A stretch of DNA of 64,000 nucleotides, taken from contig JAFRJK010000001.1 of the NCBI GenBank assembly GCA_017432305.1, positions 1-64,000 on the forward strand, written 5' to 3'. Shown here piece by piece: positions 5,125 to 57,386 of the stretch. Positions within the stretch are counted from its first letter, which is position 1. Each line of letters begins with the position of its first letter. The notes beneath the pieces were generated by a model. That model was not told where the DNA came from, made no database searches, and worked only from the letters and a program-made list of their open reading frames with translations. The stretch comes from Candidatus Saccharimonadota bacterium. GTDB taxonomy: Bacteria; Patescibacteriota; Saccharimonadia; Saccharimonadales; Saccharimonadaceae. The translations under genes were made by a program, and so were the position numbers.

Positions 5125-5226
5125 AAGTTCTAAAACGAAAAGCTAAACTGCGAGTCTTAGCTTAGAAGATAAGTTGAGAGCTTATATGACTAACAAACCG
5201 CTAAGAGTTGAGACTGGCGGTTTTTT
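5125..5226 (+). ncRNA. candidate ~100-nt structured RNA or attenuated leader
   Basis: From the expected start near 5125 the RNA can form a 7-bp hairpin (AAGCTAA with TTAGCTT), a second small hairpin (ATAAG with CTTAT) and a terminator (AAACCGC with GCGGTTT plus six T). The segment TCTTAGC, which closes the first hairpin, is also fully complementary to GCTAAGA in the terminator hairpin, so the structures could compete as terminator and antiterminator. No known RNA family is recognised. Its 3' end overlaps, antisense, the tail of the first surface-domain cassette. Confidence 0.45.
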
Positions 5227-5433
5227 GGTACGCAACGGATACGTCCACCCGTCTGGATAAACTCAGAACCTGCAATAGAGATGGTAGGAGTATCGCCTAA
5301 GTAGGACTGTAAACCATCGCCTACGGGACCAGAGCTAGTATTGCGAAATAGGTTCGCCCACCAAAACCCATGATTATCTCGAAGCTTAATGGCCCCTTCA
5401 CTGCGTCTATAACTCCCACCCCTCCAAAAATAT
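5190..5433 (-). other. FISUMP-like C-terminal cassette 1
   Basis: The reverse strand reads YFWRGGSY, then variable sequence containing FWWANLF, then GGRIRCVPK, and stops at 5190-5192. The pattern F-R-x-G-x-Y ... WW/S ... G-x-(S/R)-(V/I)-RC-V is what I know from C-terminal ends of TM7 FISUMP-like (Fib_succ_major) surface proteins. There is no credible start codon or ribosome binding site upstream of FWRGG, and only the last ~70 codons of such a protein are present. It is the only cassette in the block with a natural-looking 3' end (IRCVPK) rather than a shared palindromic junction. Confidence 0.6.
5415..5433 (-). repeat. cassette head repeat, copy 1
   Basis: The reverse-strand copy differs from the 19-bp consensus CCCACCCCTCCAAAAATCC only at the last two bases (TA for CC). 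Confidence 0.8.
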
Positions 5434-5482
5434 AACAGAGCATAATTAGTTCTTTTAATATTATAGTAATATTGTTCCGATT

Positions 5483-5501
5483 GGATTTTTGGAGGGGTGG
5501 G
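5483..5501 (+). repeat. cassette head repeat, copy 2
   Basis: Exact copy of the 19-bp repeat GGATTTTTGGAGGGGTGGG, which encodes DFWRGG in the cassette frame. Confidence 0.9.
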
Positions 5502-5670
5502 AATTATCGCCGAAGTAACGGTGGGATCGGCAATCGCCCGACAGCTGGGCATGCTTGGTCTGGCGCAGCGCCATATAATGACCATACTGCAGTAGCTCTT
5601 CATACCTACAATAATGATAATGGAAGTAGCCGAGTTTGGATGCCGGCTGATAGTAGAGGGCTTGGATTCT

Positions 5671-5690
5671 CTATCCGTGCGCAACGGATA
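5671..5690. repeat. palindromic tail junction, copy 1
   Basis: CTATCCGTGCGCAACGGATA, an inverted repeat with arms TATCCGT and ACGGATA around a GCGCA centre. It is the shared 3' end of cassettes 2 and 3. Confidence 0.8.
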
Positions 5691-5872
5691 CGATATCCAC
5701 TTCCCCTTGTATTGTTGCCATTAGGCCACCAATACCCCGTGCCATTGCCAATATGTGAATTTATATTGTAAGCGTACAGTGGCGATTGATGCACTGTATT
5801 AGTCCACCAGTTCGCATTATAGGTACGCCACGAAACTGAACCATATTCGTTAGTACTCGCAGGACGATAAGT

Positions 5873-5891
5873 CCCACCCCTCCAAAAATCC
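5873..5891 (-). repeat. cassette head repeat, copy 3
   Basis: Exact reverse-strand copy of the 19-bp repeat. Confidence 0.9.
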
Positions 5892-5927
5892 AAGAGAACA
5901 CCAAAGAACTATAATAATGCTCTGTTA

Positions 5928-5946
5928 GGATTTTTGGAGGGGTGGG
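5928..5946 (+). repeat. cassette head repeat, copy 4
   Basis: Exact forward copy of the 19-bp repeat. Confidence 0.9.
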
Positions 5947-6112
5947 TGGTATCCTGGTCGCGCTATCCATAACAGGCTGGACGCTTATATGCTTCGAGGT
6001 AATCGTAATCTGTCTGGCAATGGTGCCACAAACTTTAATTCTGGACTGTGGGGTACTGCTGAGGGTGTTACTGTTGCTCCTCAGGGTTCGGACACCAGGA
6101 AGTCGGGGATGT

Positions 6113-6132
6113 CTATCCGTGCGCAACGGATA
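6113..6132. repeat. palindromic tail junction, copy 2
   Basis: Identical to the 20 bases at 5671-5690; shared 3' end of cassettes 4 and 5. Confidence 0.8.
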
Positions 6133-6299
6133 AGACGCCCACGCCCTCTGCCAACGCCAATCATAGGCGAAACCTTGCCGGAACCATCATTAACATATAT
6201 GTATAGAGTGTGTGCCAACGTAGAACCATCAGAAAGATTTGACCACCAAAAAGCATAGATAGCACGATCATGAACGTGACCGCCTTGAGAATTATAAAC

Positions 6300-6318
6300 C
6301 CCACCCCTCCAAAAATCC
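6300..6318 (-). repeat. cassette head repeat, copy 5
   Basis: Exact reverse-strand copy of the 19-bp repeat. Confidence 0.9.
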
Positions 6319-6460
6319 TAACAGAACATTATATCTAACCTTGCATAACGGCGTTCTTGTGTCAAATATACTGTTTAGCTACGACCAACTTATGTATGGA
6401 TTTCAAATCCGTTGCGTAGCGCAGAAGTTTTTGGCGGCGTCTAACAAAGGTAAAACTTGA
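6319..6460 (+). pseudogene. orphan 3' end of a FISUMP-like gene
   Basis: Forward frame ending at TGA 6458-6460 reads TLYLTLHNGVLVSN, then YGFQIRCVAQKFLAA. The YGF-(S/Q)-(V/I)-RCVA ending is the natural terminus of TM7 FISUMP-like proteins. The upstream part of the protein is absent: cassette 5, on the opposite strand, abuts it. It may mark where an expressed gene once lay or where cassettes were inserted. Short and read by motif only. Confidence 0.45.
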
Positions 6461-6525: not shown

Positions 6526-7104
6526 GTGAAAGAATTTTTAGCAGTTCCAAAAGATGAATTTTGCGTTGAAGACTATAATCGGTGGTTTGACGAGGCGAAA
6601 GATGATTTTGAGGATAGGATAAAACATTCTGGCCCCGAAGAACGTCTCGAATTGATCGCTAAGATTGACGAGCTGATATATGAGCTTGAACAAGCAGACA
6701 AACGAATTACCGATTATCGTGACTCTATGACGTATCGCCAACCTGGTAGGTTTATAGCGACAGTGGTGTTTTATTCGGTTATATTATTGATTATCCCAAC
6801 TATTACTATGAGTGTTATGCTCGTGTATGGTTGTGATACTTCCGAAACACTCCTCGTGTCCTATGTAGTTATCCCGGTTATCTTATTTTTCCTTTTATCT
6901 CAAGAAGAAGGTTACCAAAGAAATAGGGATGTTGATGTCTTAGAAGAAATTGCCCTTGTAACAGATTCTGTTAAAGATTTTCTGAGATTTAGGATTATTA
7001 AGAAGACCGATAAGTACCAGAAGGTTATGGAGTCTAAGAAAACAACAGTAAAATTCATCCACAAATTAAAGAAAGTTAAGAGAAAACTTCTCTTAGCAAG
7101 ATAA
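6526..7104 (+). CDS. hypothetical two-TM membrane protein
   Basis: A 192-residue protein with a charged, probably helical N-terminal segment (residues 35-70), two membrane segments (about 77-100 and 107-125) and a basic C-terminal part. No family recognised. GTG 6526 is used: AAGGTGG lies ~10 nt upstream, whereas the overlapping ATG at 6521 runs into a stop after 11 codons. It has its own promoter and terminator. The layout resembles the two-TM protein at 41546-42160, without clear sequence identity. Confidence 0.75.
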   Translation: MKEFLAVPKDEFCVEDYNRWFDEAKDDFEDRIKHSGPEERLELIAKIDELIYELEQADKRITDYRDSMTYRQPGRFIATVVFYSVILLIIPTITMSVMLVYGCDTSETLLVSYVVIPVILFFLLSQEEGYQRNRDVDVLEEIALVTDSVKDFLRFRIIKKTDKYQKVMESKKTTVKFIHKLKKVKRKLLLAR

Positions 7105-55766: not shown

Positions 55767-57386
55767 ATGTCGAACAAGAAATTAGACAAGAAGAGTTGTA
55801 AGTATATTATTTACGCTCGTAAAAGTACTGAAGCAAAAGATAAACAAGTTCAATCAATTGATGACCAAATTCGTATTATGAAAGAACGTGCAAAGCGTGA
55901 TAGTCTTACAATCGTAAAAGTAATTTCAGAAGCAAAATCTGGCGGTCATCCAGGCACTCGTCCAGGATTTGCCAAAATGGTTCAGATGATTGAGGACGGT
56001 GACGCAAACGGAATCCTCACTTGGAAACTTGATAGAATCTCCCGTAATCCACTAGACAGTGGCTATATCCACCAGATGATGAACGACGGTAAACTCTCTT
56101 GGATTTTAACTGATGGGAGAGACTACAACGAAGATGATGACCTCCTCTTTGATGTTGAATCCAGTATGGATGCTAAATATCGCAAAGATTTGATGGTAAA
56201 CGTTCGTCGTGGATTATCCAGTAAAGCAGACAAGGGCTGGAGACCTCATATGGCACCGATTGGCTATCTTAATGACCGCACTGATAAGACCATTATTCCC
56301 GACCCTGATAACTGGGATTTAGTACGTAAAGTATTCGATAAGTATCTTACTGGTACCATTTCGCCAGCACAATTAACAAATTACGCCAAAGAAATTGGAT
56401 TACGGACTCATCGTCGTAAACAAATTGGCGGTAAGCCACTGACGAGCAGTGGACTTCGTTCTATGCTAACTAATGTCTTTTATACTGGTAAATATGAATA
56501 CGCTGATAAAGATGGGAATAAGAGAATCGTCAATGGCAATCATCCCCCTATGATTACGATGGAGGAACACGAACGGATTTTGGAGTTACTTGGAGGCAAG
56601 CACAACAATCGCCCACAAAAAGACCCGTACAGCTATCTTTTTAGAGGCACAATGAAGTGTGCAACCTGTGGTTTTGCCATTGTCACTGAAAAACATAAGA
56701 AAACCTACAAAAGTGGTAAGACTCAAGAGTTTGTTTATTGCCGTTGTAGTGGCAAATGTAGAGATTTTCATTGTCCTCAATCCAGTATTAACATTCCAGA
56801 AAAAGAACTTGTTGAACAGGTGAAAGCAGAACTCGCCAAATATACTATCGACCAAAGGTTCTTCGACCTTGCCATTGAAGCACTTGCGGAAGAGGAAGAT
56901 AGGCGTATTGCTGGGCAAGAAAAAAAGATTCGTGAACTCCGTCGCCAAGAGGATGCGAAGAAAAACGAACTTTCTGGTCTTCGTAGGATGCGTTATTGTG
57001 GCGAAATTACAGACCAGGCTTGGTTTATTGAAGAGTCGAATAATCTTGAGGGGCAAATTAAAGCAATTCAAGACTCTATTGCGAGAGTCGAAGTCGCCGA
57101 AAAACGTTGGCGTGATATTGCAAACGATGTATTTATGTTCGCTCGCTACGCCAAAGAAGATTTCGACAGTGACGATTTAGAACGCAAACAATACGTTTTG
57201 AAGGCTCTTGGAGCGGAACTCAAACTTTCGGGTAGAACCATTATCTTTTCCCCTGTTAAGTACTTAATTCCAATCGAAAAAGCGGTTAAAAATCTCAACG
57301 CTGATAACGATTTGGTTAGAACCTGTTCACAACAGAGAAAAAATGACCCCGAAGGGTCAAATAATTCAACGTGGTGCTGGAAGTAG
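55767..57386 (+). CDS. large serine recombinase / integrase
   Basis: A 539-residue enzyme. The catalytic domain begins YIIYARKSTEAKDKQVQSIDDQ with the nucleophile Ser near residue 18; LTWKLDRISRNPLDSG and the recombinase domain (PHMAPIGYLND, then LRSMLTNVFYTGKYEY) follow, then a zinc ribbon (CATCGF...YCRCSGKC) and a coiled coil near 375-435. It would integrate and excise the element. Its last ~5 codons and stop lie inside the 3' end of the oppositely oriented tRNA-Tyr gene, so the attachment site should be close. Confidence 0.93.
   Translation: MSNKKLDKKSCKYIIYARKSTEAKDKQVQSIDDQIRIMKERAKRDSLTIVKVISEAKSGGHPGTRPGFAKMVQMIEDGDANGILTWKLDRISRNPLDSGYIHQMMNDGKLSWILTDGRDYNEDDDLLFDVESSMDAKYRKDLMVNVRRGLSSKADKGWRPHMAPIGYLNDRTDKTIIPDPDNWDLVRKVFDKYLTGTISPAQLTNYAKEIGLRTHRRKQIGGKPLTSSGLRSMLTNVFYTGKYEYADKDGNKRIVNGNHPPMITMEEHERILELLGGKHNNRPQKDPYSYLFRGTMKCATCGFAIVTEKHKKTYKSGKTQEFVYCRCSGKCRDFHCPQSSINIPEKELVEQVKAELAKYTIDQRFFDLAIEALAEEEDRRIAGQEKKIRELRRQEDAKKNELSGLRRMRYCGEITDQAWFIEESNNLEGQIKAIQDSIARVEVAEKRWRDIANDVFMFARYAKEDFDSDDLERKQYVLKALGAELKLSGRTIIFSPVKYLIPIEKAVKNLNADNDLVRTCSQQRKNDPEGSNNSTWCWK

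Follow-up and report, generated by a model that had tools for sequence, protein, structure and literature searches.

A bank of silent cassettes apparently archived from the variable region of a diversity-generating retroelement in Saccharibacteria

Sequence comparison indicates that variable regions (VRs) made by a diversity-generating retroelement (DGR) are archived as silent cassettes, which probably (at roughly two chances in three) trade sequence with the expression site through homologous recombination. The archiving is evident from the copies themselves; the re-expression of cassettes is inferred. Slightly better than even confidence attaches to the wider reading of a two-layer system, in which a retroelement would write variants, about 100 silent cassettes would store them as a heritable library and recombination would recall them: a mutagenic retroelement with a genomic memory, present in four or more species of a single Saccharibacteria genus, with cassettes that differ between them. 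The source genome (G000, 748 kb) is a draft assembly broken at the cassette repeats themselves, and was compared with one genome per species. The window is the 64,000-nucleotide stretch of this genome that was analysed.

The cluster in the window and the genome-wide bank

The cassette cluster in the window (positions 5190-6460; Table 1) contains, as the sequence-only reading had described at the same coordinates, five segments with a common head, GGATTTTTGGAGGGGTGGG, identical in four of the five and carrying two changes in the fifth (TATTTTTGG...), none of which has an internal stop before its terminal IRC or IRA. The two tail-to-tail pairs noticed earlier were found again, each abutting at the near-palindrome TATCCGTGCGCAACGGATA. 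Neighbouring cassettes lie head to head or tail to tail, with heads 40-60 nt apart. The orphan tail is a remnant at the cluster edge. Between the cluster and rpoB lies an ORF of 192 aa with hydrophobic stretches (window 6526-7104, + strand), which has no family match above cut-off and no counterpart in the corresponding interval of four congeners (G175, G235, G134, G216).

Table 1. Coordinates of the window cluster and of the retroelement locus of the source genome
Sequence	Positions	Strand	Feature	Details
Window	5232..5432	-	Silent cassette 1	Y-type head TATTTTTGGAGGGGTGGG; 67 codons; end GGRIRC; no gene part upstream of head
Window	5433..5483	.	Head-to-head spacer, AT-rich	Spacer families recur at other clusters next to unrelated cassettes
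Window	5484..5681	+	Silent cassette 2	D-type head; 66 codons; end SIRA
Window	5672..5690	.	Tail-to-tail junction	TATCCGTGCGCAACGGATA; near-palindrome made by two abutting tails
Window	5681..5890	-	Silent cassette 3	D-type head; 70 codons; end RIRC
Window	5891..5928	.	Head-to-head spacer	Between cassettes 3 and 4
Window	5929..6123	+	Silent cassette 4	D-type head; 65 codons; end SIRA
Window	6114..6132	.	Tail-to-tail junction	TATCCGTGCGCAACGGATA, near-palindromic; between cassettes 4 and 5
Window	6123..6317	-	Silent cassette 5	D-type head; 65 codons; end LIRC
Window	6407..6422	+	Orphan tail	ATCCGTTGCGTAGCGC; matches nt 1-16 of the expressed gene's IMH-like end (21 nt long); no cassette ahead
C8, C5	C8:9273-10856 into C5:1-198		Constant gene	Crosses contig break (72-nt overlap); 570 aa
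C5	291-1283		Accessory ORF	Directly downstream of constant gene
C5	1258-2403		Reverse transcriptase	After accessory ORF
C5	2837-3067		Template repeat (TR)	Strand opposite to constant gene, accessory ORF and reverse transcriptase

The genome search for the head repeat that had been proposed for this block found the 18-bp head GATTTTTGGAGGGGTGGG 119 times in 748 kb (59 forward and 60 reverse, with up to three mismatches), versus no occurrence of a reversed control pattern; the five-cassette block is thus far from chance. A tblastn search with one cassette reached 97 places in the genome, nearly all free of internal stops, and about 110 complete silent cassettes could be read, mostly 61-72 codons long, along with two broken ones (truncated or frameshifted). 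They form approximately 27 clusters, the window block being one, and occupy about 3% of the genome. Orientation is opposite in 79 of 81 neighbouring pairs; heads are 381-412 nt apart in tail-to-tail pairs and mostly 40-60 nt apart where they face each other. The clusters are intergenic, flanked by complete genes on long contigs and present even midway along a contig of 168 kb. The bank would explain why the contigs of such genomes break at these sites. No single cassette gave a Pfam match above cut-off.

The retroelement and the origin of the cassettes

The sequence-only reading took the segments for silent C-terminal cassettes of a FISUMP-like surface protein of TM7 bacteria and proposed a search for a full-length gene with FWRGG near its 3' end. 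Such a gene was found, and it bears the claim out: it encodes a protein of 570 aa with a hydrophobic N-terminal anchor, similarity to FISUMP (TIGR02145, E=8e-9; Pfam, 0.0028; both below the curated cut-offs) and a C-terminal domain, DFWRGG...YIRC, that is the domain of the cassettes. The observation that no constant 5' part adjoins the window block extends to every cluster, but a constant gene does exist, on another contig. Its product is membrane-anchored and probably serves in attachment to host cells or in evasion of phages or immunity. AlphaFold models of the whole protein and of its C-terminal domain were of low confidence (mean pLDDT 43 both times), and we assign no fold; a profile search of PDB sequences found nothing.

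The reverse transcriptase matches RVT_1 (2.9e-9) and the PHROG reverse transcriptase family (6.5e-76), contains the motif IGNLTSQ and has its best PDB match (E=4e-24) in 8ub7, the BPP-1 DGR enzyme. TR and expressed VR differ at 26 positions, of which 19 are TR adenines; the others are at the edges, mostly in the 21-nt IMH-like end, where five differences resemble an IMH/IMH* pair, and a common GC-rich stretch follows both TR and VR. Judged by the adenine-specific changes from TR to VR, the locus on C8 and C5 appears to be a canonical DGR. The predicted DNA folding of the GC-rich stretch after the VR is ordinary for its composition (z -0.97) and no stronger than that of shuffled DNA. A bare IMH with the GC-rich downstream stretch, devoid of a VR body, is located between the reverse transcriptase gene and the TR (C5 (L033) 2450-2523, - strand). 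A second, 5'-truncated copy of the 3' end of the target gene appears to extend over the end of C6 (L032) and the start of C8 (L031); known from contig ends, it has kept the IMH and hairpin, its VR ends are identical to those of the expressed VR, and it is perhaps a recent duplicate or conversion.

Two cassettes of the source genome (C7:66329 and 66772) are copies of the TR with adenine-specific changes, diverging from it by 4% and 12% at non-A sites. The remaining cassettes are too diverged to be traced to the present TR, nearly all differing at about half of the non-A sites. Younger copies are plentiful in congeners. A cassette profile search matched 96 of 118 genomes of the genus, several of them with dozens of matches, and independent banks of mostly silent copies were recognized in G134 (about 55 copies), G216 (about 90) and G161 (at least 24), with heads that differ from those of the source genome: GILSEPFAFPRSG, RRYPLSYVFSG and ALLMAPLGFARAG. 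Compared with the local TR, seven G161 copies differ at 48% of A sites and 2.5% of non-A sites, 27 recent G134 copies at 40% and 4.9%, and 32 recent G216 copies at 37% and 4.9%; older copies extend the series continuously to a non-A divergence of about 45-50%. On this pattern the silent cassettes of these three congeners are clearly DGR products kept in an archive.

The heads reach beyond the upstream limit of the TR/VR homology and there match sequence that the expressed gene alone contains, which argues for descent from the VR and not from the TR. The silent cassettes of the source genome share only the first 9-16 nt of the IMH; in the fetched sequence of this genome, full IMH and hairpin occur at the expressed VR, in the one truncated copy and in the one bare copy near the TR, and at no silent cassette. 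BPP-1 homing requires the IMH plus the downstream hairpin (PMC3240598), so the cassettes are unlikely to have been written in place by the DGR. They were evidently copied from the expressed VR, and not directly from the TR.

The two closest relatives found with an orthologous DGR, from goat duodenum (G175) and roe deer rumen (G235), have the full-length target gene and the TR and almost no other copies. Both have an empty site at the window locus, where the interval between the KH gene and rpoB is free of cassettes; the same interval carries cassettes in the source genome and in G216. Conserved cluster sites between species are not claimed, because beyond this interval sites were matched only loosely. 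An exact search for the head of the source genome had no match in 150 other genomes of the family, suggesting a species-specific oddity, a notion overturned by the profile searches that revealed banks with other heads. The head was not found in viral contigs (0 matches).

Other members of the genus vary. G178 has 27 cassette-like matches and no match to the DGR reverse transcriptase, and may possess a bank left without its DGR. Many cassette matches in G199, G239 and G246 lie inside long frames of 400-750 codons, which suggests families of complete target genes rather than a silent bank. First-look candidates of the cassette profile, of which 21 per genome were scored, number 48-149 in G347, G190 and G241 of the genus and in G059 and G003 of other genera of the family; these may be further large banks or gene families, also outside the genus. 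DGR-type TR/VR pairs are found at similar surface genes (L087 and L088 in G181 and G225, L074 in G216), and several congeners have two reverse transcriptase matches, so DGRs appear to be common in this genus.

Selection, recombination and alternative explanations

Across 7,033 codons read in frame, the cassettes of the source genome contain two stops; each of the other five frames has between 204 and 625, and 3.3 stops per cassette would be expected from shuffled cores. Mean pairwise identity of the cores is 23%. Head and tail, to which identity at the DNA level is confined, are nearly identical, third bases included, and the invariant glycine codons of the core differ in their free third bases; thus it seems that the ends are conserved at the DNA level and the core at the protein level. 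Selection has evidently acted on the frame and scaffold of the cassettes.

Segmental exchange among cassettes is likewise evident. The G216 cassette L102:4822 is a mosaic whose 5' half is that of L073:10590 and whose 3' half is that of L110:4568, with shared derived runs of 9 and 12 against a null maximum of 7. C5:62322 and C3:8710 of the source genome have only the last 95 nt or so in common, other cassettes there have partial shared blocks, and shared 3' blocks also occur in G134. A stricter scan for mosaics, over whole prefixes and suffixes, returned no triples. Spacer families of the source genome recur at up to four or five places next to unrelated cassettes, as if cassettes were exchanged between fixed frames.

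The mechanism that we favour would begin with the DGR copying the TR into the VR with random changes at adenines, as the TR/VR comparisons display. The VR, together with a short gene-specific head that is absent from the TR, would then be copied to intergenic sites as promoterless, sharp-ended cassettes; the origin from the VR is apparent in the heads, and homologous recombination is the most likely means of copying. Cassettes recombine segmentally with each other, as the mosaics attest. With the expression site they would exchange by way of their conserved ends, a head of about 28 nt and a tail of about 10 nt, and so be re-expressed. This exchange would explain how silent DNA keeps its frame: stored variants would be kept open by selection through re-expression. 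Several points count against it. Transfer from bank to expression site was not seen, because the expressed or likely expressed VR in each of G000, G134, G216 and G161 has a core almost or wholly free of non-A changes, as a newly made DGR product would, and is not an old cassette; the tail homology is short (9-16 nt); only two cassettes of the source genome are traceable to its present TR; and the expression site spans a contig break.

The same fresh state of the expressed VRs would suit a one-way graveyard, in which VRs are copied out by ectopic recombination and then decay unused. The two truncated or frameshifted cassettes and the orphan tail at 6407 could be signs of such decay, and young copies would be open for free, since changes of AAY to NNY create no stops. 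However, nearly all cassettes of the source genome have diverged from the TR at about half of the non-A sites and yet have the two stops mentioned above, whereas neutral decay would give about three stops per cassette; scaffold residues are conserved while third bases drift; and old G216 cassettes are open too, with a stop in 3 of 84. Decay without use is therefore unlikely. Less probable by far is that the cassettes are untranscribed remote DGR targets, recipients of mutagenic retrohoming: they do contain VR sequence with the start of the IMH, and the truncated copy on C6 and C8 does keep IMH and hairpin, but no silent cassette in the fetched sequence of the source genome has both in full, and the non-A divergence of most cassettes from the TR is far too high for recent recipients. 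It is harder still to credit that they are small proteins in their own right, or parts of intact surface genes broken by assembly. Their frames are open, and a TTG that could act as a start often stands before D-type heads, but Y-type heads lack a start and often follow directly on a TAG, the heads begin abruptly within the domain, and clusters sit between complete genes on long contigs.

Least probable of all is a shufflon-like or integrase-driven system with the inverted head repeats as recombination sites, one of two mechanisms put forward in the sequence-only reading. The strict alternation, the inverted 18-bp heads and the abutting near-palindromic tails of the source genome resemble it, but the constant gene adjoins no cluster, inversion of a tail-to-tail pair could express nothing, and other banks are tandem or mixed instead of alternating. 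Nor do the bank genomes appear to have a dedicated recombinase in common: G161 has a single PF00589 tyrosine recombinase, whose type occurs in each of the six genomes tested, and lacks any PF00239 hit. The source genome itself does have a second PF00589 protein and two PF00239 proteins. Two large serine recombinases (frames of about 550-570 aa), in the window (55806-56237, + strand) and at C7:63252-63695 of the source genome, probably belong to mobile elements. The earlier preference for a donor bank over local inversion holds; that a DGR targets the expressed gene, and that the cassettes come from its VR, had been missed.

Comparison with known systems

The retroelement resembles known DGRs, those of the Bordetella phage BPP-1 type and of the CPR, in its 8ub7-related reverse transcriptase, its TR and VR with adenine-specific changes, its 21-nt IMH-like end with five TR/VR differences and a GC-rich stretch downstream, and the C-terminal position of the VR in a surface-type protein. 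In known DGRs the VRs number one or a few and lie within complete target genes, whereas here there are about 110 additional silent, intergenic copies without IMH and hairpin. The remote targets of Treponema denticola (PMC4891356) are similar in that several VR copies lie far from the reverse transcriptase, but they are described as VRs in target genes, not as promoterless fragments. The shufflon of the R64 type, with double-ended invertible segments, also has inverted C-terminal alternatives between short repeats; it differs from the present system, in which a constant gene is not adjacent and no dedicated recombinase appears to be common to the bank genomes.

A search of the full text of open-licence papers on DGRs in connection with silent cassettes, gene conversion, antigenic variation or Saccharibacteria, PMC8144416, PMC10907252 and PMC4891356 among them, came upon no system of this sort. 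The DGR and the silent donor bank are each known, and their union is, as far as the open-licence literature goes, undescribed. The commitment of about 3% of a strongly reduced genome to the bank suggests strong selection, plausibly for binding to the host bacterium or for evasion of phages, and how obligate episymbionts keep pace with changing hosts becomes testable.

The closest parallels to the bank are vlsE/vls of Borrelia, pilE/pilS of Neisseria and tprK of Treponema, which likewise combine a single expression site with many open, promoterless cassettes encoding one variable domain, and which also have conserved flanks and show segmental mosaicism. In contrast to these, new variation here comes from a retroelement, the cassettes are dispersed over about 27 sites in alternating orientation, the system is not known to act against animal immunity, and transfer to the expression site is deduced rather than observed. 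DGRs are regarded as overwriting devices, each homing event destroying the previous variant. A bank of kept VRs would give the DGR a memory, and would link it to antigenic variation from cassettes, the other main way in which bacteria vary their surface.
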